Part shown: positions 30,472 through 62,782 of the stretch, one piece after another
How the letters are laid out: every line of letters starts with the position of its first letter
Numbering within the stretch: position 1 is the stretch's first letter
Assembly: GCA_028383305.1 (NCBI GenBank)
Contig: JAOEVD010000014.1
Coordinates: 1-62,782 of the forward strand
Length of the DNA stretch: 62,782 bases
Direction of reading: 5' to 3'
From: Candidatus Puniceispirillum sp.
GTDB lineage: Bacteria; Pseudomonadota; Alphaproteobacteria; Puniceispirillales; Puniceispirillaceae
Notes under the pieces: model-generated
Told to the model about the DNA's origin: nothing
Databases searched by the model: none
Seen by the model: the letters and a program-made list of their open reading frames with translations, nothing else
Position numbers and translations under genes: made by a program

Positions 30472-31770
30472 ATGGCACAAAATCATCCAGACCGCGGTCA
30501 ACGCGGATTGCCGGGCGGCGCCCCGCGCTATTCAGCATTTGCGCTTGCCAAAAAGGCGATGAATTATCATCAGGACTGGCAACGCGCATGGCGCGACCCC
30601 GAACCAAAGGCCGAATATGACGCGGTGATTATCGGCGGTGGCGGGCATGGGCTTGCCACGGCTTATTATCTTGCTGCGGTTCATGGCCTGACCAATATTG
30701 CGGTGATTGAAAAAGGCTGGATTGGCGGCGGCAATACCGGCCGTAACACCACCATCATCCGGTCAAATTATCTTTGGGACGAATCTGCTGCCATTTACGA
30801 ACATTCGATGAAGCTGTGGGAAGGCATGTCGCAGGATTTGAATTTCAACGTCATGTTCAGCCAGCGCGGCGTTTTGACCATTGCGCACAGCGAACATGAA
30901 TTACGCGAAATGTCACGGCGCGTTCATGCGATCCGGCTAAACGGCATTGATTCAGAAATTCTTGGCCCCGCAGAAATCAAAAAATTCGTTCCAACAATCA
31001 ATATCGATCAGTCAATCCGCTATCCGGTTATGGGCGGCTTTTTGCAGCGGCGCGGCGGCACAGCACGCCACGACGCGGTGGCCTGGGGCTATGCGCGCGC
31101 GGCCGATGATTTAGGGGTCGATATCATTCAGAAATGTGAAGTCACTGGATTGCGCCGCCAAGGCCGCAAAATCATTGGCGTTGAAACCAGTCGCGGTTTT
31201 ATCAAAACCAAAAAAGTTGGTTGCGTTGTGGCCGGTCATTCAAGCGTCGTTGCGGCAATGGCCGGTATCCGTTTGCCAATTGCCAGCCGCCCATTACAGG
31301 CACTGGTGTCGGAACCGATCAAACCGATTCTTGATACGGTGATCATGTCGAATGCGGTTCATATGTATATCAGCCAATCTGACAAGGGCGAGATGGTTCT
31401 TGGTGCCGGTGTCGATAAATATAATTCCTACGCACAACGAGGCTCATTTCCAGTGCCCGAACATATGCTTGCCGCCGCGGTTGAGCTATTTCCGGTTTTA
31501 TCGCGCTTGCGGATGCTTCGCCATTGGGGCGGCATTGTTGACACCTGTCCCGACGCATCACCAATCATTTCCAAAACCGATATTGAAGGCCTGTATTTTG
31601 ATTGCGGTTGGGGCACTGGCGGCTTTAAAGCAACACCCGGATCAGGGCATGTTTTTGCCGATCTTATCGCCAATGACCGGCCCAATAAAATTGCCGCGCC
31701 CTATAGTTTGGATCGGTTCCGTACCGGCCTGCTGATTGATGAACATGGCGCCGCTGGCGTGGCGCATTAA
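30472..31770 (+). CDS. soxB: Heterotetrameric sarcosine oxidase, beta subunit
   Basis: SoxB is the flavin-bearing subunit that oxidatively demethylates sarcosine to glycine; the methyl leaves as formaldehyde or 5,10-methylene-tetrahydrofolate. The 432 residues show an N-terminal extension and the FAD-binding fold [19 protein letters not shown] (about 45-63). [17 protein letters not shown] and [17 protein letters not shown] follow; the latter contains the His matching the known covalent FMN site. The C-terminal portion has [19 protein letters not shown]. Length and motifs agree with characterised TSOX beta subunits. It is first in soxB-soxD-soxA-soxG, with 21 bases to soxD. Confidence 0.96.
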
Positions 31771-31791: not shown

Positions 31792-32160
31792 ATGTTGATC
31801 ATCACTTGCCCATTTTGTGGCCCCCGTGACGAAGTTGAATTTGCCTGTGGCGGCGAAGCTCATATTGCGCGCCCCCTTGCCGATCATAAAATTTCGGATG
31901 CTGATTTTGCCGATTATCTATTCATGCGCGACAATCCAAAAGGCCTGTTTCTTGAACGATGGCGGCACAGCGCCGGATGCCGGCGCTGGTTTAATGTGGC
32001 ACGCGACACGGTAAGCAATGAAATTGTCGAGATTTACCCAATGGGAAGCCTGCCGGTAAAAACCGCCGCAAAAACCACCTATAAAACAAGCTGGCGGCGC
32101 GACACAGCGGCCGAAAAAGCCGCCACGCCATCACGCAGCAAAGCCGGAGGATCAAAATAA
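31792..32160 (+). CDS. soxD: Sarcosine oxidase, delta subunit
   Basis: SoxD is the small zinc-binding structural subunit of heterotetrameric sarcosine oxidase. At 122 residues it is of normal to slightly long size. The zinc ligands known from TSOX structures are exactly in place: C6 and C9 (TCPFCGPRDEVEF), H59 and C63 (WRHSAGCRRWF). The conserved YLFMRDNPKG and FNVARDTVSNE segments follow. A Lys/Arg/Ala-rich tail of about 35 residues extends the C-terminus. The stop codon overlaps the soxA start (TAATG), which implies translational coupling. Confidence 0.96.
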   Translation: MLIITCPFCGPRDEVEFACGGEAHIARPLADHKISDADFADYLFMRDNPKGLFLERWRHSAGCRRWFNVARDTVSNEIVEIYPMGSLPVKTAAKTTYKTSWRRDTAAEKAATPSRSKAGGSK

Positions 32161-35100
32161 TGGTATCTCGTTCCGCCGCATCCGGCAGCCCACAAACCAA
32201 GCCCCAGCGCGCAGTCGCAAGAATCGACCAAAACGCGCCTGTCAACTTCACCTTTGATGGCCGCAGCTATCGTGGCTTTGCTGGTGACACGCTGGCATCG
32301 GCATTGCTTGCCAATAATGTTCATCTTGTTGGTCGTTCATTCAAATATCACCGGCCACGCGGCATCATGGCAGCGGGTTCCGAAGAACCGAACGCGCTGA
32401 TCCGGCTTGGCAAAGGCGCTTATGCCGAACCCAATTTACGCGCCACTCAGATTGAAATTTTTGAAGGGCTTTATGCCGAAAGCCAGAACCGCACCCCGTC
32501 TTTAAAATTTGACATTGGCGCCATTAATTCGGTTCTCGACCGGTTTTTCCCAGCAGGGTTTTATTACAAGACCTTTATGTGGCCAGCATCAATGTGGATG
32601 CGCTACGAACATGTCATTCGGCACGCTGCCGGTCTTGGCAAGGTTGCTGATGATCATAATGACCCTGACCGCTATGAAAAAACCCACGCGCATTGCGATA
32701 TTCTTGTTGCTGGCGGTGGCGCAACTGGCCTGATGGCGGCACTGCAAGCGGCAAAAAGCGGGACCCGCGTGATTCTGGCTGACGAGCAGAATGAATTTGG
32801 CGGCTGGTTGCTTGGCGAAGCCGATATCATGATTGGCGATTGTCCAGCGTTCAATTGGATCAGCGATATTGTGGCCGAATTAGCCGCCATGCCGAATGTC
32901 ACCTTGCTTCCCCGAACCACGGTTTTTGGCTATCTGGATCATAATTACCTGACCTTGAATGAGCGCGCAACCGATCACCTACCATCACGCCCAGCGCATC
33001 TGCCACGCCAACGTTTGTGGAAAATCCGCGCAAAACAGGTGATCATCGCGCAAGGCGCCCATGAACGGCCATTGGTTTTTGCAGGCAATGATCTTCCCGG
33101 TGTTATGCTTGCTGGCGCAGTTCGCACCTATATCAACCGCTATGGCGTTTGTCCGGGACAACGCGCCATCGTTGTTTGCAATAATGATGATGCCTATCGC
33201 ACCGCGCTTGATCTTCATCATGCTGGCGCGCATGTCGTGGTTGCCGATCTTCGGGCAAAGGCAACCGGCCCGCTAATGCGTGCGGTTCGTGATGCTGGCA
33301 TCGAAATTCTGCAAGGCCATGCCGTCATTGCCGCCTATGGCAATCACCGCGTTGCGCGGGTCGAGATTGCGCCGGTTAATGACGCTGTTACCGAAATCAG
33401 TGGCGATATTGATCATCGTGATTGTGACCTGATTGCCATGTCGGGCGGCTTGTCGCCTGCGGTTCATCTTCATTCACAAGCCCGCGGCAAATTACAATGG
33501 GACGATGCAAAATTATGTTTCCGTCCATCAGCGACACATGAGCCGAGCTTTAACATTGGTGCCTGTAATGGCAGTTTTGATCTTAGCGCTGGTTTGAAAG
33601 AGGCGGTTCGCGCTGGCACCAAAGCCGCAAGCGCAACTGGCCATAAAACAACCGCGCTTGATACGCCTATTGTGCAAAGCCATAAGCAAAGCTGGTGTCC
33701 GCTTGCTGCATGGAAAATTCCAAATGGTCATGCCGCCGGACGCGGGCCAAAAGCCTTTGTCGATTTCCAGAATGACGTCACCGCAAGTGATGTGTCGCTT
33801 GCGGCGCGCGAAGGATATCAGTCGGTTGAACATCTCAAACGCTATACCACCACCGGCATGGGAACCGATCAGGGCAAAACATCCAATATCAATGCCTTGG
33901 CCATTCTTGCCGATGCGCTTGGCAATGAAATTCCGGCCGTTGGCACAACCACTTTCCGGATGCCCTATACCCCATCAAATATTGGTGCCATCGCTGGCCG
34001 CGATATTGGCGATCTTTTTGATCCGGTTCGCCTGACCCGCATGGATGATTGGCATCGTGCGCATGGTGCGACCTTTGAACATGTCGGGCAATGGATGCGC
34101 GCTTGGTATTACCCACAAAATGGCGAAACCATGCAACAAGCGGTCAATCGTGAAGTCAAGGCAGCGCGGACAACGGCCGGACTGCTTGACGCCTCAACGC
34201 TTGGCAAAATTGATATTCGCGGGCGGGATGCGGCCGAATTTCTTAACCGCCTTTATACAAATGCCTGGCGCAAGCTTGGTATCGGCAAATGCCGCTATGG
34301 CCTGATGCTGAAAGACGATGGCATGGTCATGGATGATGGTGTGACCACCCGCATTGGCGAAAATCATTTCCACATGACCACAACCACTGGCGGTGCTGCT
34401 GGTGTTCTGGATTGGATGGAAGAATGGCTGCAAACCGAATGGCCTGATCTTGAGGTTTATCTGACATCGGTAACCGAACAATGGGCGGTTGCCACATTAT
34501 CAGGGCCGAATGCTGGCAAGATTCTGCAAGATGCCGGTATCGATTTTGACCTGTCACCAGCCGAATTTCCGTTCATGTCGATGAAGGAAGGTCATATTGG
34601 CGGGCTGGCAGCGCGCATTTTCCGCATTTCATTTACCGGCGAGTTGTCTTACGAAATCAATGTGGCGGCGCGTCATGGATTGGCATTATGGACCCGCCTG
34701 ATGGCCGCAGGCAAAGCGCATGGCATCACCCCTTATGGTACCGAGGCCATGCATGTTCTTCGCGCCGAAAAGGGCTTTATCATTGTCGGACAGGAAACCG
34801 ATGGATCAGTAACGCCGCATGATCTTTGCATGAATTGGATTGTCTCAAAAACCAAACCTGATTTTATTGGCAAGCGGGCGCTGGCGCGTCACACCATGGA
34901 ATATGATGATCGCAAACAGCTTGTTGGATTGCTGTGCAGCGACCCGTCAACAGTAATCCCTGAGGGCGCGCATGCGGTTCTTGATCCAGACCAGCCTTTG
35001 CCAATGAAGATGCTTGGACAGGTTACATCATCCTATTTTTCACCAAATTGTGGACGCTCGATTGCGATGGCCATGTTAAAAGGCGGCCATGCGCTAAAGG

Positions 35101-35201
35101 GGCAAACGGTTTTCTTCCCCATGCTTGATGGTTCGATTTTGAAAGCCGAAATCGTCGATACGGCATTTTTTGATCCAAAGGGAGCGCGCATAAATGGCTA
35201 A
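32160..35201 (+). CDS. soxA: Sarcosine oxidase, alpha subunit
   Basis: SoxA binds NAD+ and tetrahydrofolate and channels the imine product of the beta subunit to folate. The 1013 residues start with a degenerate Fer2_4-type domain (about 20-110, FTFDGRSYRGFAGDTLASALLA). A two-dinucleotide-fold domain follows (DILVAGGGATGLMAALQAA, about 180; the RAIVVCNNDDAYRTALDLH region, about 337). The C-terminal GcvT-like folate domain covers about 610-1005 (GLLDASTLGKIDIRGRDAAEF, LYTNAWRKLGIGKCRYG). This order is that of known TSOX alpha chains. It overlaps soxD by one base and soxG by eight. Confidence 0.97.
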   Translation: MVSRSAASGSPQTKPQRAVARIDQNAPVNFTFDGRSYRGFAGDTLASALLANNVHLVGRSFKYHRPRGIMAAGSEEPNALIRLGKGAYAEPNLRATQIEIFEGLYAESQNRTPSLKFDIGAINSVLDRFFPAGFYYKTFMWPASMWMRYEHVIRHAAGLGKVADDHNDPDRYEKTHAHCDILVAGGGATGLMAALQAAKSGTRVILADEQNEFGGWLLGEADIMIGDCPAFNWISDIVAELAAMPNVTLLPRTTVFGYLDHNYLTLNERATDHLPSRPAHLPRQRLWKIRAKQVIIAQGAHERPLVFAGNDLPGVMLAGAVRTYINRYGVCPGQRAIVVCNNDDAYRTALDLHHAGAHVVVADLRAKATGPLMRAVRDAGIEILQGHAVIAAYGNHRVARVEIAPVNDAVTEISGDIDHRDCDLIAMSGGLSPAVHLHSQARGKLQWDDAKLCFRPSATHEPSFNIGACNGSFDLSAGLKEAVRAGTKAASATGHKTTALDTPIVQSHKQSWCPLAAWKIPNGHAAGRGPKAFVDFQNDVTASDVSLAAREGYQSVEHLKRYTTTGMGTDQGKTSNINALAILADALGNEIPAVGTTTFRMPYTPSNIGAIAGRDIGDLFDPVRLTRMDDWHRAHGATFEHVGQWMRAWYYPQNGETMQQAVNREVKAARTTAGLLDASTLGKIDIRGRDAAEFLNRLYTNAWRKLGIGKCRYGLMLKDDGMVMDDGVTTRIGENHFHMTTTTGGAAGVLDWMEEWLQTEWPDLEVYLTSVTEQWAVATLSGPNAGKILQDAGIDFDLSPAEFPFMSMKEGHIGGLAARIFRISFTGELSYEINVAARHGLALWTRLMAAGKAHGITPYGTEAMHVLRAEKGFIIVGQETDGSVTPHDLCMNWIVSKTKPDFIGKRALARHTMEYDDRKQLVGLLCSDPSTVIPEGAHAVLDPDQPLPMKMLGQVTSSYFSPNCGRSIAMAMLKGGHALKGQTVFFPMLDGSILKAEIVDTAFFDPKGARING

Positions 35202-35808
35202 TTTATCAAGCAATAAACCAGATTTTTCTGGCCAGACCGCCCTTGCTGGCATTGCTGGCAGCACAAGCGCCAACCCCGATGGTGGTGCGATTGGGCTTGT
35301 TTTTGGTGAGATGGCGCATCTTGGCAAACTGAATCTGCGTGGCCAAAACGGCCTTGCCAAATCGGTAAAGGCGGTCACCGGCTGCACATTTCCGCCAAAG
35401 GCCAACCGGTTTCAATCGGCAGGCGAACGCCATGTGGTTTGGCTTGGCCCCGATGAATATCTGTTATTATGCGAGGCTGGGAAAGAACAAGAGCTGCAAG
35501 ACAGCCTGAATAGCATGATCACATCATCGCATTTCGCCATCACCGATGTAAGTGACAGCCTCTGTGCGCTATCGCTTCGCGGGCCTGCGGTTCGTGCTGT
35601 TCTAGCCAAAGGTTGCGGGCTTGATCTGCATCCAAAGCAATTCGCCGCTGGCCAATCGGCGCAAAGCTTGCTGGCACTCTCTGCGGTAACATTGATGGCT
35701 GTAGCAGATGATGCCTTTATTCTGATTTGCCGCACCAGCTTTGCCCCGTATGTTCAACGCTGGCTTGCCGATGCTGCTTTAGAATATGGCTATCAATATG
35801 TTGCCTAG
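35194..35808 (+). CDS. soxG: Sarcosine oxidase, gamma subunit
   Basis: SoxG is the fourth subunit of heterotetrameric sarcosine oxidase and also has a GcvT-like fold without a known active site. The 204 residues include the LGKLNLRGQNG start of the domain, VWLGPDEYLLLC, ITDVSDSLCALSLRGPAVRAVLAKGCGLDL and the C-terminal FILICRTSFAPYVQRWL. Its ATG lies within the last codons of soxA (8-base overlap), so translation is coupled. It ends the sox operon. folD, purU or formate dehydrogenase genes that follow soxG in some bacteria are absent here; the next gene is convergent. Confidence 0.95.
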   Translation: MANLSSNKPDFSGQTALAGIAGSTSANPDGGAIGLVFGEMAHLGKLNLRGQNGLAKSVKAVTGCTFPPKANRFQSAGERHVVWLGPDEYLLLCEAGKEQELQDSLNSMITSSHFAITDVSDSLCALSLRGPAVRAVLAKGCGLDLHPKQFAAGQSAQSLLALSAVTLMAVADDAFILICRTSFAPYVQRWLADAALEYGYQYVA

Positions 35809-35908: not shown

Positions 35909-37462
35909 TTAATAATCAGTATCAGGCAATTCTTCCATGCGTTTGTCGATAAAGGCACGCAAGGCTTCGTCAATCGCCGGATCGATTGCTGGCGCTTCAT
36001 AAGCAGCCAGCATCTCACCAGCGCGTTTGCGCGCGCGGGTGCCGCTCTCAACACTGCCCTCAGACGACCATTGCTCATATGTTGTGTTATCGGCCATTTG
36101 TGACCGCCAAAACGCATGTTCAAAGTTAGCCTGCGTATGCGCCGACCCCAGAAAATGCTGACCGGGCCCAGTTTCGCGAAGCGCGTCCATTGCCTGACCA
36201 TTTTCCGACAGATCAATGCCATTGACTAGTTTTGGCATCATTGTTAATTGATCGGCATCAAGCAGCAATTTGGCGTAATCGGCAACCAAACCGCCTTCCA
36301 TCCAGCCAGCCGCATGAAGCACAAAATTCGTGCCACCCATGATTGTTGGCAAAATCGTATGCGTCGACTCATAAGCTGCCTGCGCATCAGCCGTTTTGGA
36401 ACCGGTCAATGATCCGCCTGACCGGAACGGCACGCCTAAACGACGCGCCAGCTTGGCACAGCCATAAAGCACCTTTGCCGGCTCCGGCGTACCAAAGGTC
36501 GGCGCGCCTGTCTGCATCGACATCGAGCTTGCAAAACTGCCAAAAATAACCGGCGCTCCCAGATTGACCGCCTGTGCAAAGGCAATGCCGCTCATCGCTT
36601 CGGCAAGCGTTTGTGCCAAGGTACCGGCAACCGATACTGGCGACATCGCACCGGCAAGGATAAAGGGCGAAATAACCGTTGCCTGATTGTTGCGAGCATA
36701 AACTTTTAACGCCCCAAGCATGGTGTCATCCCATGTCATTGGCGAATTGGCATTGATCAGGCTTGTCAGCACCGTGTTATTGGCAACAAATTCATCGCCA
36801 AACAGGATCTTCGACATATCAATCGTGTCTTGCGCACGGCTTGGCGCGGTGACTGACCCCATATAGGGCTTGTCGGAAAAACGCTGATGCGCATAGACCA
36901 TTTCAAGGTGACGTTTGGTCACTGGCAAATCAACTGGCTCGCAGATCGTGCCGCCCGAATGATGCAAGCCCGGATGCATATAGGCCAGCTTTACCAGATT
37001 GCGGAAATCTTCCATCGTCGCATAGCGGCGCTCATTATCGAGATCGCGCACAAAGGGTGGGCCATAGACTGGCGCAAAAACCGTATTCATCCCGCCAATT
37101 TCAACGGAACGTTCGGGATTGCGGGCATGCTGAGTATATTCAGGTGGCGCAGTCGAACAAAGCTGGCGGGCAAGACCACGCGGGAAATGCACACGTTCGC
37201 CTTGAACATCGCAACCAACATCACGCAAAATGCTTAAGGCTTCGGGATCATCACGAAAATCAATGCCAATTTCCTCAAGAATCGTTTCGGCATTGTTTTC
37301 AATAATTTCAGCGCCTTCATCACTTAGAATATCAACCGGGGATATCTGGCGCGTAATGAACGGTGCGGCGGCCTGATGATTGCCTGAAGATCTTGCGCTG
37401 CGGCGCGCATCGCGTCCGCCACCACGGCGATTCCGGCGATCTGATGTGTTTGTGTCAGTCAT
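35909..37462 (-). CDS. MttB-superfamily methylamine/betaine:corrinoid methyltransferase, non-pyrrolysine
   Basis: A 517-residue member of the trimethylamine methyltransferase superfamily. The archaeal founder uses pyrrolysine encoded by an in-frame amber codon near residue 334. Here the frame has no internal stop, so it belongs to the non-pyrrolysine branch. Characterised members of that branch (for example MtgB for glycine betaine) demethylate quaternary amines, passing the methyl to a corrinoid protein. Visible segments are NAETILEEIGIDFRDDPEAL, VFAPVYGPPFVRDL, GGTICEPVDLPVT (about 190) and SFASSMSMQTGAPTFGTPE (about 310). The N-terminus carries an Arg/Gly tail (DRRNRRGGGRDARRSARS, residues 8-25). 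It follows a DMGDH-like gene by 33 bases, so betaine is my favoured substrate; carnitine or proline betaine are alternatives. Confidence 0.88.
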   Translation of the reverse strand: MTDTNTSDRRNRRGGGRDARRSARSSGNHQAAAPFITRQISPVDILSDEGAEIIENNAETILEEIGIDFRDDPEALSILRDVGCDVQGERVHFPRGLARQLCSTAPPEYTQHARNPERSVEIGGMNTVFAPVYGPPFVRDLDNERRYATMEDFRNLVKLAYMHPGLHHSGGTICEPVDLPVTKRHLEMVYAHQRFSDKPYMGSVTAPSRAQDTIDMSKILFGDEFVANNTVLTSLINANSPMTWDDTMLGALKVYARNNQATVISPFILAGAMSPVSVAGTLAQTLAEAMSGIAFAQAVNLGAPVIFGSFASSMSMQTGAPTFGTPEPAKVLYGCAKLARRLGVPFRSGGSLTGSKTADAQAAYESTHTILPTIMGGTNFVLHAAGWMEGGLVADYAKLLLDADQLTMMPKLVNGIDLSENGQAMDALRETGPGQHFLGSAHTQANFEHAFWRSQMADNTTYEQWSSEGSVESGTRARKRAGEMLAAYEAPAIDPAIDEALRAFIDKRMEELPDTDY

Positions 37463-37495
37463 TTAACAAATCCTCATAAACAGTCAATTCGGCGG

Positions 37496-39934
37496 CTAGG
37501 CGCAAAGGCGGGCATTGTCAGGATCAAATGGCGAATCCTCGAGAACGGTCACTGGCAATCGCTGATCCAGAATATCAATCATCAATTTAGTACCAGGTGT
37601 CGCTAAATCTGGACGAACCATTGCCAATGCCAGCGATTTACCCAGCCGGAACCCATAACCACCGCTTGTGGCGCGGCCAATCACTGTTCCATCTTCGGTC
37701 ATGATCGGGTTGCCACCAATGGCATCAGCATCGGTTGTGTCATGCACCTCTAACGTTACCATGGCATTGGCAAAGCCGCGTTCTTGCCATTCGGCCAATT
37801 GACGCTGGCCTTTGAAATCGCCCTTATTGAGATGTACAAACCGGTGCAAACCGCTTTCCAATGCCGCATATTCGATTGATAGTTCGGTGCCAACAAGACG
37901 ATATGATTTTTCCAGCCGCATTGCATCCATGGCCCGAATGCCAAATGGCTTTAGCCCGAATTCCGCACCTGCCGCCATCAACGCATCAAAAATATGGTTT
38001 TGATATTCGATCGGGTGATGCAATTCCCAGCCAAGCTCGCCAACAAAATTCACCCGAATGGCCATTGCTGGTGCCAAATTTACATCAATCATCTGTCCAG
38101 AAAGCCATGGGAAGGCCGCATTCGACAGATCGGCGCGGGTGATTTTGTCAAGAATGTCGCGTGATTTTGGCCCTGCCAAAACCAGAACACCAATTGAATT
38201 GGTTAGATTATCCATCCGCACCGAGCCATCAGTCGGCATATGTTTTTTGATCCAGTCATGGTCAAGGCGTTGCCCCGCCCCTGCTGAAACAAGGTAAAAA
38301 CTTGTTGCGCTTTCCCGCTGAATTGTGAATTCGGAATGCACGCCGCCACGTTCGGTCAAGGCATGGCATAATGCCACCCGCCCCACTTTCTTGGGTAATT
38401 TATTGGCAACAAGATGATTTAAGAACGCTTCGGCACCCGGCCCAGATATCCGCGCTTTGGCAAAGGCAGACATATCAAGCAATCCAGCATTTTCATTAAC
38501 GTTACGAACCTCATTACCGATATGCTCAAAATAATTTGACCGGCGGAATGACCAATGATCTTCTTGCGGCACGCCCTCAGGGGCAAACCAATTGGCTCGT
38601 TCCCAACCAAATTTCTGTCCAAAAACCGCACCAAGCGCTTTTAACCGATCATAACAAGGCGCGGTTCGAAGCGGGCGGGCTTCGGTGCGTTCTTCATCGG
38701 GGAAATGCGTGACAAAAACATTGGCATAGGCTTCTTCGTTTTTGACCTTCAGATAAGATTTTGTGGCATAGCTGCCATAACGCCGCGGATCGACCCCCAA
38801 CATATCAATTGTTGGCTCGCCGTCGACAATCCATTCAGCAAGCTGCCATCCGGCACCGCCAGCCGCGGTAATGCCAAAACTATGGCCTTCATTCAGCCAA
38901 AAATTTGGCAGATTCCATGCCGGTCCAACAATCGGGTTGCCATCAGGCGTATAGGCAATTGCACCATTATAAACCCGCTTTACCCCAGACTCGCCAAAGG
39001 CAGGAACACGGTTCATCGCCGACTCGATATGCGGCTCAAGCCGTTCTAAATCTTCTTGGAATAACTCATATTCGGAATCATCGCTTGGTCCATCCAGATA
39101 ACAAACCGGCGCGCCTTTTTCATAAGGGCCTAGGATCAAACCTCCAGCCTCTTCACGCATATACCATTGTCCTTCGGATTCTCGAAGAACGCCCATTTCA
39201 GGCTTGCCATCACGGTGACGCGCCTGAATATCAGGATGCGCTTCAGTTACGATATATTGATGCTCAACCGGAATGACCGGAATATTCAGCCCAACCATTT
39301 CGCCGGTTTTCCGCGCAAAATTGCCGGTCGCACTGACCACATGTTCACAGGTGATGTCGCCCTTGTCGGTGGAAACAATCCAAAGACCATCATCACTTCG
39401 GCTAATCGCTGTCACCGCAGTATTGCGATAGATTTCCGCGCCACGGTCACGCGCACCGCGTGCCAGCGCTTGGGTTAAATCAGCCGGCTGGATATAGCCA
39501 TCTTGCGGGTGACGAATGGCACCAACAAGCCCCTCGATATTCGCCATTGGCCAATAATCCAGAACCTGCTCAGGTGTTAGGAAATCAACCTGCACGCCAA
39601 TCGTGCTGGCAACACCGGCATATTGCCGAAACTCATCCATCCGGTCTTGATTGCTGGCAAGCCGGATATTGGACACATTGCGGAACCCGACATCCATGCC
39701 GGTCTCTTCTTGCAATTCTTGATAAAATTTCACTGAATATTTGTGAATTTGTCCAACCGAATAGGACATGTTGAATAATGGCAACAGACCTGCCGCATGC
39801 CATGTCGAACCCGAGGTTAGCTCCTTACGTTCGACAAGTACTACATCACTCCAGCCCTTCTTTGCCAGATGATACAAAGTACTAACACCAACGACGCCAC
39901 CGCCAATTACAACAACACGCGCATGCGACTTCAT
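37496..39934 (-). CDS. Dimethylglycine/sarcosine dehydrogenase-like FAD oxidoreductase with GcvT domain
   Basis: An 812-residue flavoprotein of the DMGDH/SARDH family, which oxidises N-methyl groups of dimethylglycine or sarcosine and hands the C1 unit to tetrahydrofolate. The N-terminal half is a DAO-type FAD domain: VVVIGGGVVGVSTLYHLA (8-25) and SGSTWHAAGLLP with H46, the position of covalent FAD attachment in DMGDH. The C-terminal half (about 430-800) is a GcvT-like folate domain (GLLDMSAFAKARISGPGAEAFL, GIRAMDAMRLEKSYRLVGTE). It has a good upstream region (39935-40136) and is the first gene of a likely two-gene operon with the MttB-type gene. Dimethylglycine is the likely substrate because sarcosine oxidase is encoded next door, but related N-methyl compounds are possible. 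Confidence 0.9.
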   Translation of the reverse strand: MKSHARVVVIGGGVVGVSTLYHLAKKGWSDVVLVERKELTSGSTWHAAGLLPLFNMSYSVGQIHKYSVKFYQELQEETGMDVGFRNVSNIRLASNQDRMDEFRQYAGVASTIGVQVDFLTPEQVLDYWPMANIEGLVGAIRHPQDGYIQPADLTQALARGARDRGAEIYRNTAVTAISRSDDGLWIVSTDKGDITCEHVVSATGNFARKTGEMVGLNIPVIPVEHQYIVTEAHPDIQARHRDGKPEMGVLRESEGQWYMREEAGGLILGPYEKGAPVCYLDGPSDDSEYELFQEDLERLEPHIESAMNRVPAFGESGVKRVYNGAIAYTPDGNPIVGPAWNLPNFWLNEGHSFGITAAGGAGWQLAEWIVDGEPTIDMLGVDPRRYGSYATKSYLKVKNEEAYANVFVTHFPDEERTEARPLRTAPCYDRLKALGAVFGQKFGWERANWFAPEGVPQEDHWSFRRSNYFEHIGNEVRNVNENAGLLDMSAFAKARISGPGAEAFLNHLVANKLPKKVGRVALCHALTERGGVHSEFTIQRESATSFYLVSAGAGQRLDHDWIKKHMPTDGSVRMDNLTNSIGVLVLAGPKSRDILDKITRADLSNAAFPWLSGQMIDVNLAPAMAIRVNFVGELGWELHHPIEYQNHIFDALMAAGAEFGLKPFGIRAMDAMRLEKSYRLVGTELSIEYAALESGLHRFVHLNKGDFKGQRQLAEWQERGFANAMVTLEVHDTTDADAIGGNPIMTEDGTVIGRATSGGYGFRLGKSLALAMVRPDLATPGTKLMIDILDQRLPVTVLEDSPFDPDNARLCA

Positions 39935-40136: not shown

Positions 40137-40727
40137 CTATGGATTCAGCCGTTGAATATCCCAGCCACCATCAGCCTGTAACAGGAACCGAAACCGGTCA
40201 TGCAGCCGGTGTTCACCATCATGCCAAAATTCGATTTCCTGCGGCTTTAAACAGAACCCACCCCAATGCGGCGGACGCTCAACAGCGGCGGGAAATTGTG
40301 TTTCAACGGCTTTAACCTCGGCTTCGAGTGCGGCGCGGCTGGCAAGCGGGCGTGATTGCGCTGATGCCCAAGCACCGATCTGGCTTCCACGTCCACGGCT
40401 GTGGAAATATTCATCGGATTGCGCGGCTGTTGCCTTGGTGATATCGCCGACAACCCGCACCTGACGACGCTGGCTTTTCCAATGCATGCAAAAAGCCGCT
40501 TTGCCCGTGGCCAGCAATTCATCCGACTTTCGGCTTTCATAATTGGTGAAAAACAAAAACCCATCAGGCGACCAGCGCCGTAACAAGACCATCCGCACCG
40601 ACGGCATACCGCTGGCATCAACCGAGGCCAATGCAATCGCATCAGGATCATTGATTTCGGTTTTTACCGCCTCATCGAACCAATTTTGTAAAAGGGCAAA
40701 AGGGTCGGTTCCGGCAGTGATTTCCAT
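40137..40727 (-). CDS. pdxH: Pyridoxamine 5'-phosphate oxidase
   Basis: PdxH oxidises pyridoxamine or pyridoxine phosphate to pyridoxal phosphate with FMN. The 196-residue protein has the family segments PFALLQNWFDEAV, ALASVDASGMPSVRMVLLRR, GFLFFTNYESRKSDEL (FMN binding) and FCMHWKSQRRQVRVVGDI. The C-terminal part has PPHWGGFCLKPQEIEFW, DRFRFL and the final RLNP. GGAG precedes the ATG. It is monocistronic between the DMGDH-like gene and a divergent envelope-protein gene. It supplies the cofactor of the aminotransferase and Dxs-linked vitamin B6 metabolism. Confidence 0.96.
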   Translation of the reverse strand: MEITAGTDPFALLQNWFDEAVKTEINDPDAIALASVDASGMPSVRMVLLRRWSPDGFLFFTNYESRKSDELLATGKAAFCMHWKSQRRQVRVVGDITKATAAQSDEYFHSRGRGSQIGAWASAQSRPLASRAALEAEVKAVETQFPAAVERPPHWGGFCLKPQEIEFWHDGEHRLHDRFRFLLQADGGWDIQRLNP

Positions 40728-51172: not shown

Positions 51173-51589
51173 TTAAACCTCGTCACTTTCTAATCCTGTT
51201 TTCAGCCGATCAGTTTCCCGACGCTGACGTTTTGTTGGTCGTCCACTGCCTTTGCCACGCGCCTCAAATTCAGGCGATTTGGTTTTTGCAGCCTTGCCGG
51301 GCGTTGCCTCAACCGGCGCCAGATCTTCAAACAGCAATGCCGCTTCGGGCGCTGGCCCGCGGCGGGTGCCAATCGCCACAACTTTAATCACCCGCACCCG
51401 GTCGCCCTGAACAAAGGTCAAGACCTGCCCGCACAAAGCTTGGCGGTGCGGTTTTGTCATCACCTGACCATCCAGCCGGAAACGTCCTGCCGAAATGACC
51501 TTGCTGGCGGCGCTTCGGGTTTTGAAAAAACGCGCATACCACAGCCATTTATCCAGCCTTATGACTGTTTCTGGCGCGCCAGCATTCAT
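51173..51589 (-). CDS. S4-domain RNA-binding protein, HslR/Hsp15-like
   Basis: A 138-residue S4-domain protein related to heat-shock protein Hsp15, which binds stalled 50S subunits carrying nascent chains. The S4 domain lies at the start: VIRLDKWLWYARFFKTRSAA, KVISAGRFRLDGQ and GDRVRVIKVVAIG. A basic tail (about 95-138, including GKGSGRPTKRQRRETDR) replaces the family's usual basic C-terminus. It sits 4 bases after the helicase stop codon and abuts the TerB gene. The grouping helicase-S4-fdxA-carD is conserved in alphaproteobacteria. Confidence 0.92.
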   Translation of the reverse strand: MNAGAPETVIRLDKWLWYARFFKTRSAASKVISAGRFRLDGQVMTKPHRQALCGQVLTFVQGDRVRVIKVVAIGTRRGPAPEAALLFEDLAPVEATPGKAAKTKSPEFEARGKGSGRPTKRQRRETDRLKTGLESDEV

Positions 51590-59823: not shown

Positions 59824-61884
59824 CTAGCGCCGCCGTCCACCGCGACGCCTGCCACCCGCCAGCGCCGGTGCATCTTCATCGGTTAAAATCCGTATGGGCA
59901 AATCAACTGCCGCTGCCAGATTGGCATAGGGATCGCTTTTATGCGGAATCGCCATTGCCTTGACAAAATGGTCTTGAAATGACGCTTCGACCGCTGTTTC
60001 AATTTTTTCAATCTGCCTGACAACCGCTTCAATATCGTGGCGCGCCGCCTGATTCAACAAGGCCATCCGCGCGCCCGCACCAGCTGAATTGCCTGCCGCC
60101 CGCACATTGGCCAGCAAACAATCAGGTATCATGCCCAAAACCATCGCATATTTCGGGTCAATGTGCGTGCCAAACGCCCCAGCCAAAACAACACGGTCAA
60201 CCTTCCGGATATTGATTTTATCCATCAACAGGCGGAACCCTGCATAAAGAGCGGCCTTGGCAAGCTGGATTGCCCGAACATCATTTTGCGTCACGCTAAC
60301 CGTATCTGTAATGCGATAGGAAAACGTGCGGTCATCGGCTTCAATTCGGCTATTTTGCGCGGCCTTGCTGCCATCAATCACCCCATCCATCGTGATGATT
60401 CCAGCAAGATACATCTCGCCAAGCACCTCGATGATTCCCGATCCGCAAATGCCGGTAACACCGGTTTTTTCAACCGCCGCATCAAACCCATCTTCAGCCG
60501 ACCAAAGATCAACACCAATAACGCGGAATTTTGGCTCAAGCGTGTCCTTGTCAATGCGAATCCGTTCAATCGCCCCCGGCGCGGCGCGCTGTCCTGATGA
60601 AATTTGCGCCCCCTCAAAGGCAGGGCCGGTTGGCGATGATGCCGCTAACAAACGATGCTTGTTGCCAACAACAATTTCGGCATTGGTGCCAACATCAACA
60701 ATCAGGGTCATTTCATCGGCCTTTTGCGGCGCTTCGGCAAGCACGACAGCCGCCGCATCAGCCCCAACATGGCCAGCAATGCAAGGCAGGATATAAACCC
60801 GGCCACCCGGATTAATGGCAAGGCCTAATTCAGCCGCCCGAACATCCATCGCCGCATCAACCGCCAAGGCAAAAGGCGCGCCACCCAGTTCAACCGGATC
60901 AATGCCAAGAAGAAGGTGATGCATCACCGGATTGCCAACCAAAACCAGCTCGACAATATCTTCACCACTCAGGCCAGCCTGTTTTGCCGCACCATCAATC
61001 AGCGTTTGCAAACCAGCAATCACCGCCTTGGTCATTTCGGCTGCACCGCCCGGATTCATGATGCCGTATGATACGCGGCTCATCAAATCCTCACCAAATC
61101 TGATTTGCGGATTCATCGCCCCGGTTGAGGCCAGCACCGTACCAGTGACCATATCGCACAGATGCGCCGACATGGTGGTCGATCCCACATCAATGGCAAC
61201 ACCAGCAATCTGGTCTTTCAGGCCGGGCCAAATGGCCACGATCTGATGCCCGTCACGAAGCGCCAATGTTACATGCCATTTACCTTGACGTAAAACTGGC
61301 TGTAAGCGCTGGATAACATGTAGATCACAAGTGATGTCGCCAGTAACACGATCTGGCCATTGGCCTTCCAAGGCTTCGATCAGGCGGCGTAAATCGCCTG
61401 ATGGTTCATGCATGTCGGGTTCTCGCACCTCGACAAAACACAAACGCACAATCGGGTCCATTGCGATTGAACGGCCATCGGCCTCTTTACGAACAAGTTG
61501 ATTATGAACCTGACTTTCAGGGGGAACATCAATCACCGCATCATTTAGTAATTTTGCCTGACAGGACAATCGCCGCCCATCAATCATGCCGCGCTTGTCG
61601 GCATATCGCATTTCAACAGCTGTTACCGCAGCCAGATGATCGGCACCCGATTTCAAACCATGTTTGGCAAATTCACCAATACCAACATCGACCTGACAGC
61701 GACCGCACATGGCGCGTCCGCCACATACCGAGTCAACATCCACACCAAGTTGGCGTGCCGCGGTCAAAACCGCCGTTCCAACGGGAACATACCCTTGCCG
61801 GCCAGATGGGGTAAATACTACTTTCACCTGATCAGTGGCTGCCTTATCGGATGTTGTGGCAGCTTCATCTTTGCTTTTGCTCAT
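59824..61884 (-). CDS. RACo-like corrinoid protein reductive activator (2Fe-2S + DUF4445 ASKHA)
   Basis: A 686-residue protein that by family re-reduces oxidised Co(II) corrinoid to Co(I) in corrinoid-dependent methyl transfer, driven by ATP. An N-terminal [2Fe-2S] ferredoxin domain (about 20-115) has Cys in SVCGGRAMCGRC and a fourth in LSCQAK. A linker region precedes the DUF4445 ASKHA ATPase domain (about 230-640), with phosphate loops GVAIDVGSTTMSAHL and LIVDVGTNAEIVVG and adenosine motif VLAGAFGTHIDPK. The C-terminus ends in AGGRRRGGRRR. I prefer ATG 61884 to the GTG at 61887; GGTGGCAAGG precedes it. It is convergent with ccmD and directly follows a pterin methyltransferase gene (24-base gap), its functional partner. 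Confidence 0.9.
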   Translation of the reverse strand: MSKSKDEAATTSDKAATDQVKVVFTPSGRQGYVPVGTAVLTAARQLGVDVDSVCGGRAMCGRCQVDVGIGEFAKHGLKSGADHLAAVTAVEMRYADKRGMIDGRRLSCQAKLLNDAVIDVPPESQVHNQLVRKEADGRSIAMDPIVRLCFVEVREPDMHEPSGDLRRLIEALEGQWPDRVTGDITCDLHVIQRLQPVLRQGKWHVTLALRDGHQIVAIWPGLKDQIAGVAIDVGSTTMSAHLCDMVTGTVLASTGAMNPQIRFGEDLMSRVSYGIMNPGGAAEMTKAVIAGLQTLIDGAAKQAGLSGEDIVELVLVGNPVMHHLLLGIDPVELGGAPFALAVDAAMDVRAAELGLAINPGGRVYILPCIAGHVGADAAAVVLAEAPQKADEMTLIVDVGTNAEIVVGNKHRLLAASSPTGPAFEGAQISSGQRAAPGAIERIRIDKDTLEPKFRVIGVDLWSAEDGFDAAVEKTGVTGICGSGIIEVLGEMYLAGIITMDGVIDGSKAAQNSRIEADDRTFSYRITDTVSVTQNDVRAIQLAKAALYAGFRLLMDKINIRKVDRVVLAGAFGTHIDPKYAMVLGMIPDCLLANVRAAGNSAGAGARMALLNQAARHDIEAVVRQIEKIETAVEASFQDHFVKAMAIPHKSDPYANLAAAVDLPIRILTDEDAPALAGGRRRGGRRR

Positions 61885-61908
61885 CACCTTGCCACCAATT
61901 TGCGACGG

Positions 61909-62782
61909 TTAAGCGTTGCGGCGGCGGCGAGTCTGGCGACGTTCGCGCCCACCTTCACCCGGCACAACAGGTTCGCGAAATTTTTGAATCCAACGACGAC
62001 ATTCTGGATCATTTCCGTTCATCACATTCGCGCCCATGATGCCGGTCATTTCTTCAGCATGCAGCGGGTTCATAATTGCCGAGGTCATACCGGCCCCCGC
62101 TGCCATTGACAGAAACGCGGCATTCATCCCGTGGCGGTTTGGCAGGCCAAAAGAAATATTTGACGCGCCACAAGTTGTATTCACCTTCAATTCATTGCGA
62201 AGACGGATGATCAGATCAAGCGCTGACCGGCCAGCCATATTGATGGCACCAACCGGCATGATCAATGGATCAACAACAACATCTTCGCGCGGGATGCCGT
62301 AATCAGCGGCACGTTCGACAATTTTCTTGGCAACTTCATAACGCACATTTGGATCTTCGGAAATGCCGGTTTCATCATTTGAAATCGCCACAACAGCCGC
62401 GCCATATTTTTTGACAAGCGGCAAAACAACTTCCAGACGTTCTTCTTCGCCGGTTACCGAATTGACCAGCGGCTTGCCTTTATAAACAGACAAGCCAGCC
62501 TCAAGTGCGGCAACGATTGAGCTGTCAATCGCCAGCGGCACATCAACCACCTCTTGAACAAGCTGAATGGCCTTGGCAAGAATGGCCGGCTCATCCGCCA
62601 TCGGAATGCCAGCATTCACATCAAGCATCGTGGCACCCGCCTCGACTTGTGCCAATGCATCAGACAGAACGCGCGAATAATCATCAGCGGCCATTTCGGC
62701 GGCAAGAAGCTTGCGTCCGGTTGGGTTGATGCGCTCACCAATGACACAAAATGGCGAGTCAAAGCCAATGGTGATTTCCTGT
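61909..62782 (-). CDS. Pterin-binding methyltetrahydrofolate:corrinoid methyltransferase (5' end outside window)
   Basis: A DHPS/pterin-binding domain enzyme of the AcsE/MtrH/MtgA type, which transfers methyl groups between tetrahydrofolate and a corrinoid protein. The frame is open to base 62782 without a start, so the N-terminus is missing; the visible 290 residues begin EITIGFDSPFCVIGERINPT. Pterin motifs present are DVNAGIPMADEPAI, PLAIDSSIVAALEAGL, KPLVNSVTGEEERLE and VVVDPLIMPVGA. NTTCGASNISFGLPNRHGMN is the distinctive corrinoid-type sequence. The C-terminus is Arg-rich (GGRERRQTRRRRNA). With the adjacent RACo-like gene it forms a corrinoid module. The direction, probably methyl-cobalamin to folate in betaine catabolism, is inferred. 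Confidence 0.88.
   Translation of the reverse strand, partial: QEITIGFDSPFCVIGERINPTGRKLLAAEMAADDYSRVLSDALAQVEAGATMLDVNAGIPMADEPAILAKAIQLVQEVVDVPLAIDSSIVAALEAGLSVYKGKPLVNSVTGEEERLEVVLPLVKKYGAAVVAISNDETGISEDPNVRYEVAKKIVERAADYGIPREDVVVDPLIMPVGAINMAGRSALDLIIRLRNELKVNTTCGASNISFGLPNRHGMNAAFLSMAAGAGMTSAIMNPLHAEEMTGIMGANVMNGNDPECRRWIQKFREPVVPGEGGRERRQTRRRRNA

Follow-up and report, generated by a model that had tools for sequence, protein, structure and literature searches.

A two-gene operon in an aerobic bacterium of the SAR116 lineage, encoding a dimethylglycine dehydrogenase (DMGDH) and a methyltransferase of the non-pyrrolysine MttB superfamily, probably initiates the oxidative catabolism of glycine betaine through a corrinoid route (MtgB-MtgC-MtgD), followed by DMGDH and the sarcosine oxidase SoxBDAG. 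SAR116 is an abundant lineage of the ocean, and glycine betaine is a major marine osmolyte. The operon lies on a contig of 62,782 nucleotides, analyzed as a whole and hereafter called the window, which is one (C6) of the 81 contigs of a SAR116 metagenome-assembled genome (2.41 Mb, 84% complete) to which Candidatus Puniceispirillum and SAR116 bacteria are close named relatives. We propose that MtgB, the MttB-type protein of the operon, would demethylate glycine betaine once, loading the methyl group onto the Co(I) corrinoid carried by the free corrinoid protein MtgC (contig C48), that MtgD would pass this methyl from MtgC to tetrahydrofolate, and that a RACo-type protein would reduce cobalamin again whenever it has been oxidized to Co(II). 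The resulting dimethylglycine would be oxidized by the adjacent DMGDH and sarcosine would be turned into glycine by SoxBDAG, with the folate domains on both enzymes taking up the one-carbon unit. The substrate and the flow of methyl groups are here taken from what is known of the protein families. Glycine betaine is favored by the gene families involved, the conserved arrangement of the genes, the co-occurrence of MttB and MtgC, the lack of a detectable MetH domain, the MtgB-like pocket, the presence of the whole corrinoid hub on one contig in a relative and the published genetics of MtgC and MtgD in Ruegeria pomeroyi. In addition, the enzymes that would meet at MtgC bear arginine-rich tails, which may serve to dock them.

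The genes, their conserved arrangement and their co-occurrence are direct observations. An earlier, sequence-only reading of the window had described an MttB-superfamily gene without an amber codon 33 bases behind a GcvT-fused DMGDH-like gene, with soxBDAG converging on it, and both points were borne out: the open reading frames (ORFs) are separated by 33 bases (37463-37495), Pfam assigns their families, the mttB gene contains no internal stop, and the sox genes on the opposite strand match their Pfam and TIGRFAM models (Table 1), soxG falling below the cut-off of TIGR01375 (113.7 vs 143.95 bits). The first protein of the pair has the make-up of a dimethylglycine dehydrogenase, with an FAD domain, FAO_M and GcvT folate domains across about 800 residues; its best solved chains are the dimethylglycine dehydrogenases 5l46 (622.9 bits) and 4p9s (620.1 bits), the mammalian DMGDH being closest. 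The sets of MttB relatives were built on the best 80 of 553 found, so the rows are biased to close kin. In the 52 out of 80 relatives with about 72% identity or more, DMGDH lies directly upstream in 50 and sox is convergent in 50, which argues that the arrangement is not due to chance; the exceptions are L054 and L074, which are cut by contig edges, and L072, which has neither DMGDH nor sox. The 28 more distant relatives take in Rhizobiaceae, Rhodospirillales and Acidimicrobiales; none has this DMGDH arrangement and two have convergent sox, 21 out of 28 carry MtgC in the fetched locus, and 23 carry MtgC, MtgD or RACo. The hub genes form a cluster in Sinorhizobium meliloti Ak57, Paracoccus aminovorans and Azoarcus sp. 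KH32C; two of these three stretches also contain a gene for a glycine betaine transporter. Mesorhizobium sp. B1-1-8 carries a related MttB (54.8% identity) behind a pair of genes for FAD-dependent oxidoreductases and facing genes for betaine transporters. Just upstream of the pair in the window, on the same strand, lies pdxH (40137-40727, minus strand), a position kept in most SAR116 relatives with enough sequence there.

Table 1. Features of the window discussed in the text, with positions counted from its first nucleotide
Feature	Position	Strand	Evidence
mtgB-type gene, non-pyrrolysine MttB superfamily	35909-37462	-	517 aa; PF06253 753.9 bits, whole profile
Dimethylglycine dehydrogenase, first gene of the pair	37496-39934	-	812 aa; DAO + FAO_M + GCV_T + GCV_T_C
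soxB, sarcosine oxidase beta	30472-31770	+	TIGR01373 713.5 bits (cut-off 529.45)
soxD, sarcosine oxidase delta	31792-32160	+	TIGR01374 119.8 bits (cut-off 116.5)
soxA, sarcosine oxidase alpha	32160-35201	+	TIGR01372 1453.8 bits (cut-off 1164)
soxG, sarcosine oxidase gamma	35194-35808	+	PF04268 74.5 bits (cut-off 21)
RACo/RamA-type corrinoid reactivase (Fe-S + ASKHA domains)	59824-61887	-	PF14574 293.8 bits; PDB 3zyy 307.4 bits
mtgD, methyl-tetrahydrofolate:corrinoid methyltransferase	61909-62782, 5' end cut by contig end	-	NF005719 372.9 bits (cut-off 259); PF00809
N-terminal arginine-rich tail of MtgB, residues 1-33, putative docking tag	37364-37462	-	Invariant Arg/Gly; mostly unfolded in AlphaFold model
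C-terminal arginine-rich tail of reactivase, last 10 residues	59827-59856	-	Sequence
C-terminal arginine-rich tail of MtgD, last 12 residues	61912-61947	-	Sequence

The genome encodes four PF06253 proteins, and judging from sequence, pocket residues and context, the window MttB is the likeliest glycine betaine enzyme (MtgB) among them. It is 42% identical to Desulfitobacterium hafniense MtgB (468 columns), vs 36, 27 and 25% for the other three paralogues. As in D. hafniense MtgB, a leucine stands at the place of Pyl334 (pyrrolysine) and a histidine near that of Tyr364, within NFVLH (numbering from PMC9842639). In the two short stretches compared, RSGG-x-L..SKT-DAQA and NFVLH are common to the window MttB and the D. 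hafniense structure 9yce and differ in the three paralogues. The AlphaFold model (mean pLDDT 82.3) matches the folds of 4yyc, 9yce and 2qne first. In a midpoint-rooted tree, whose root serves for drawing only, D. hafniense MtgB is placed beside a large group in which the window protein and S. meliloti 4yyc fall together with several sets of paralogues, including that of contig C23; the MttB proteins of contigs C51 and C12 form long branches next to the trimethylamine MttB. The sequence-only reading had held that a place among enzymes for an unrelated substrate would speak against it; set against three characterized or solved MttB-type proteins (D. hafniense MtgB, Methanosarcina barkeri MttB and S. 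meliloti 4yyc), the window MttB groups with 4yyc, next to MtgB and apart from the trimethylamine enzyme. A pyrrolysine-dependent trimethylamine MttB is ruled out, as the gene lacks an internal stop and reaches 260.3 bits against the 525 bits of TIGR02369. The Rfam model PYLIS_3 matches inside the mttB gene (36310-36409, minus strand; 39.8 bits, gathering score 38), which may reflect shared protein-coding sequence, the model detecting a protein family and not an insertion element.

The other paralogues lie in different settings. On contig C51 (L008 1712-4807), a second MttB gene comes after a further DMGDH-like GcvT-fused gene that is truncated by the end of the contig; this second MttB, which differs in the pocket and starts with an arginine-rich stretch, may act on another methylated amine. 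The third, on contig C12 (L010 275-11272), stands amid genes for a DmdA-type demethylase, a thiamine pyrophosphate enzyme, an FMN-dependent dehydrogenase, a peptidase S51 protein, a LysR regulator and a TRAP transporter. The fourth, on contig C23 (L009 935-8070), has a gene for a TonB-dependent receptor nearby, as well as one for a periplasmic binding protein whose family includes cobalamin uptake proteins; B12 is a candidate cargo of both. This set of four paralogues, together with the variety of substrates across the MttB superfamily, of which such enzymes have been named in Eubacterium (PMC12478193), leaves room for the window MttB to act on another quaternary amine (proline betaine, carnitine, choline or gamma-butyrobetaine), with DMGDH and sox processing a related product. 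We consider this unlikely: DMGDH and sarcosine oxidase catalyze the two steps that follow glycine betaine demethylation and each adjoin this MttB in all but two of the 52 close relatives, the pocket residues match those of D. hafniense MtgB, and in some genomes, e.g. G089 (99% complete), G098, G099, G103 and G104, the sole MttB match is this one.

Glycine betaine demethylation by MtgB would also depend on a corrinoid protein, and the sequence-only reading had named the absence of any such gene as a result that would speak against it. The genome does encode one, MtgC, alongside the methyl-tetrahydrofolate methyltransferase and the reactivase of the window, two genes that the sequence-only reading had overlooked. 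MtgC accounts for the single B12-binding_2 match of the genome and is encoded at one end of contig C48, where a truncated DUF1638 gene comes next; the single other PF02310 match is mutase-like by reading. In the relative G083, one contig carries the genes in the order MtgC, DUF1638, a divergent MTHFR-like gene, MtgD, RACo and then cytochrome c assembly-like genes, which also follow RACo at the end of the window. Since G083 has the full hub on one contig in this order, C48 very probably continues into the window contig, although we kept the two separate. In G083, the start of the mtgB orthologue is 28.8 kb from mtgC. The divergent MTHFR-like gene of that relative (L105 7757-8752; PF02219 32.9 bits), between DUF1638 and mtgD, has its place in the gap between the two contigs of the window's genome. 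The wider claim of the sequence-only reading, that the cluster encodes the full stepwise demethylation of a quaternary amine, thus holds in part: the corrinoid step and folate as the one-carbon acceptor fit the genes, but the cluster alone does not suffice, because the genes for the reactivase and the folate methyltransferase begin only some 22 kb further on and that for the corrinoid protein is more distant still.

We then surveyed 136 genomes of the order, 43 of which are of good quality (at least 90% complete, at most 5% contaminated). An MttB match was found in 77 and an MtgC match in 69 of the 136, three of the latter being weak (about 2e-4 to 6e-4; G008, G047 and G127), and 66 out of 77 MttB genomes have a strong MtgC match. 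Among the good genomes, MttB and MtgC occur in the same 37 (lists compared by eye), and the six with neither belong to family f3, whose genomes also lack the MetH reactivation domain. This domain (PF02965) was found in none of the 136 genomes, the window's own (84% complete) included, and in 7 out of 14 controls, and MetH was rejected as the B12 partner on this count. MtgC, MtgD and a homocysteine module, MtgE (contig C56), probably replace it. MtgE has some match in 42 out of 43 good genomes; among the 37 with the hub, the match is weak and paralogue-like in G082, G089, G103 and G104 and missing in G101, so these five may keep the hub without the methionine module, assembly gaps being an alternative.

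Several observations weigh against a glycine betaine pathway of this kind. MtgC and the reactivase score below the cut-offs of their nearest NCBIfam models (for the reactivase, AcsV, 378.6 bits against 800); 11 out of 77 MttB genomes have no strong MtgC match, all 11 being less than 90% complete; the joining of C48 to the window contig is itself deduced from G083; and the substrate assignment draws on context and homology. Moreover, the MtgB orthologues do not form a clean clade once paralogues are counted, and the tree is therefore consistent with MtgB function without proving it. Two further genes could supply a different first step. Contig C41 ends in a fragment of a PF00848 (Rieske-type) oxygenase, and the C56 protein is labeled a betaine-homocysteine methyltransferase (BHMT) by NCBIfam, passing the cut-off of NF005718 (468.8 vs 338 bits). 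If either a Rieske monooxygenase or BHMT opened the pathway, MttB would have another role, which we regard as quite improbable. The Rieske piece lies amid unrelated genes and resembles carnitine monooxygenase only weakly (34.6 bits). BHMT as the first step is judged unlikely, for the C56 protein scores higher against the homocysteine module of MetH than against human BHMT among solved structures (147.1 vs 70.6 bits), and proteins like it have been argued to be MtgE (PMC12478193).

Apart from the pathway, the partners of MtgC share a feature that looks new. MtgB begins with MTDTNTSDRRNRRGGGRDARRSARSS, and MtgD, RACo and the C56 MtgE end in RERRQTRRRRNA, GGRRRGGRRR and RRGRRGRRRSS, respectively. 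We scored such tails as the maximum number of arginines per 12 residues within the first 45 or last 30 residues, counting the window gene twice in the MttB, MtgD and RACo tallies (as window and as search locus). The MttB N-terminus has at least 5 arginines in 71 out of 82 rows and at least 4 in 80 out of 82 (L054, with an open 5' end, was left out, and L037 had no start codon found), and the C-terminus has at least 5 in all MtgD (21/21) and RACo (23/23) rows. As a background we used 323 ORFs of at least 120 residues from 400 kb of G083, chosen mechanically as the longest ORFs and unannotated. At the N-terminus, 1 of these reaches at least 6 (a ribosomal protein L18-like ORF), 3 at least 5 and 15 at least 4; at the C-terminus the corresponding numbers are 0, 3 and 17. 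The background thus gives no support to tails as an effect of composition. Among the 43 listed ORFs of the window, a list that does not hold MtgD because its frame is open at the contig end, at least 6 is reached only by MttB and RACo, and ORF 51173-51589 reaches 5. Judged by reading, without a cut-off, arginine-rich tails (with some lysine) are present on 30 out of 30 fetched MtgE orthologues, on MtgD (9/9) and RACo (9/9) of further SAR116 clusters, and on all 12 further MttB paralogues. The MttB proteins of Ruegeria, Leisingera, Phaeobacter, Cereibacter, Azoarcus, Mesorhizobium and S. meliloti 2011 have 4-6 arginines per 12 residues (7/7).

In the MtgB alignment (A1; 23 of 26 sequences requested, without L099, which has a stop codon, L034 and L042), R12, G15, G16, R20 and R24 are invariant across two phyla. 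AlphaFold gives residues 1-16 and 25-29 a pLDDT below 50 and predicts a weak helix at 17-25. We judge it unlikely that the MttB tail results from a wrong start codon, because its arginine codons differ synonymously among close relatives and C-terminal tails cannot arise from start errors. Among five relatives, residues 1-33 show 34 synonymous and 27 non-synonymous codon differences vs 587 and 120 in the remainder of the gene, so the tail region as a whole evolves faster than the core at the protein level. A C-terminal tail is absent from three other PF02574 proteins and DHPS of the same genome, from nine MTHFR-family ORFs (L179-L187), and from DMGDH, FabI and DUF1638; with none of the nine MTHFR-family ORFs tailed, the tails do not mark the one-carbon pathway as a whole.

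The rule is not a clean one. The C23 MttB has 2 arginines per 12 residues, though it is lysine-rich, and MtgD and MttB of S. meliloti reach at most 4. Conversely, 5 arginines per 12 residues occur near the N-terminus of MetF of S. meliloti and Paracoccus, at the C-terminus of an S. meliloti aminotransferase, at the N-terminus of SoxA in 2 out of 39 rows and at the C-terminus of PdxH in 1 out of 44, and 4 occur in DmdA (N-terminus) and a mutase-like protein (C-terminus) of the window's own genome. Solved homologues from anaerobes, a small set, end near the core: 9yce (477 residues, aligned from residue 6), 3zyy (631 residues, aligned to 622) and 4o0q (290 residues, aligned to 282). A haloarchaeal MttB starts almost at the core, with 2 arginines per 12 residues and a net charge of -6 over its first 35 residues. 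This tailless gene, on a plasmid of Halomicrococcus gelatinilyticus (L191 12001-13452), adjoins genes for urocanate hydratase and ABC transporter proteins, and two FAD-dependent oxidoreductases are encoded close by.

The opposite charge is found on MtgC, whose first 20 residues hold 7-10 aspartates or glutamates and at most one lysine or arginine in 33 out of 33 distinct sequences (22 of them in alignment A2); 0 out of 323 background ORFs have at least 7 and at most 1, respectively. AlphaFold models residues 16-28 of MtgC as a helix and 1-6 as unfolded. The partner bodies are acidic too (net charge -12 to -33 for MttB, -9 to -16 for MtgD and -16 to -50 for RACo; -17 to -31 for whole MtgC), so the positive ends run counter to the trend. 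From which proteins bear a tail and which one bears the opposite charge, we propose, at about even chances, that aerobic B12 methyl transfer uses a docking code, with partners recruited by arginine-rich tails to a shared MtgC with an acidic N-terminus. Docking of this sort would enable a single B12 protein to work with several substrate enzymes, as a genome with four MttB paralogues and one detected corrinoid protein of the MtgC type would require. MtgC would serve several substrate methyltransferases, the folate methyltransferase, the homocysteine methyltransferase and the reactivase, each with a probably disordered tail, which is N-terminal and RxGGRxARR-like in MttB proteins and C-terminal in the other partners, where it resembles RGGRAAR, RRGGRRR or RRGRRR. 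Such tails would act like the covalent linkers of MetH and allow a number of substrate modules to share one B12 protein.

RG-rich tails are also known nucleic-acid binders, and the tail sequence is loose between paralogues, as could be expected if the tails bound RNA, DNA or membrane, or aided the formation of condensates, and did not dock to MtgC. This is possible, if somewhat doubtful, given that the tails sit on four kinds of protein that must touch the corrinoid, that the C-terminal tail is missing from the one-carbon and other proteins listed above, and that MtgC carries the opposite charge at its N-terminus. If correct, docking to MtgC would explain how one untethered B12 protein serves four or more enzymes in an aerobe, and the tail would offer a sequence signature for unknown hub modules and further B12-dependent demethylases.

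The sequence-only reading had noted that aerobes usually begin glycine betaine catabolism with a homocysteine methyltransferase or a Rieske oxygenase and that non-pyrrolysine MttB homologues are mainly studied in anaerobes. A corrinoid route in an aerobe is no longer unexpected: genetic work on Ruegeria pomeroyi shows that it requires MtgC and MtgD both to use glycine betaine and to synthesize methionine, and the same study names SAR116 among the mtgC carriers and notes up to seven PF06253 ORFs per genome (Mausz et al., 2025, PNAS, PMC12478193). As this system is published, the operon itself belongs to a known kind, MtgBCDE, and the tails and the acidic N-terminus of MtgC are the part that appears new. 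The word-searched text of that paper mentions neither arginine nor tails, the term 'arginine-rich' is absent from the searched text on the split methionine synthase of Phaeobacter inhibens (PMC5764234), and we found no paper joining a corrinoid protein and a methyltransferase with arginine-rich or electrostatic disordered docking, which is weak evidence of novelty because the search covered open-licence papers.

Among known systems, D. hafniense MtgABC (2qne and 9yce for MtgB) shares the fold, the pocket residues and the leucine at the pyrrolysine place, but it belongs to an anaerobe, its MtgB is the 42% identical protein compared above, and that chain lacks an N-terminal tail. The S. meliloti hub (L188, CP090106) also contains MttB, MtgC, DUF1638, MTHFR-type, MtgD, RACo and bmt genes, within about 18 kb, and has tails on four partners, with 4yyc as the structure of its MttB; there, however, MttB adjoins MtgC and not DMGDH. 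The three-part methionine synthase of P. inhibens likewise comes with RamA-like and DUF1638 proteins, but has been described for methionine only (Price et al., 2018, PMC5764234). Another parallel is MtgBCD(E) of R. pomeroyi DSS-3, which also has separate PF06253, corrinoid and pterin proteins, RamA-type and DUF1638 proteins and a homocysteine module, with no MetH found (PMC12478193). Unlike in that system as published, MtgB here forms a pair with DMGDH and has sox converging on it, which makes it easier to pick out among four paralogues. The operon thereby suggests a sequence-based answer to the question, left open in that work (PMC12478193), of which PF06253 paralogue is MtgB in the SAR116 lineage.

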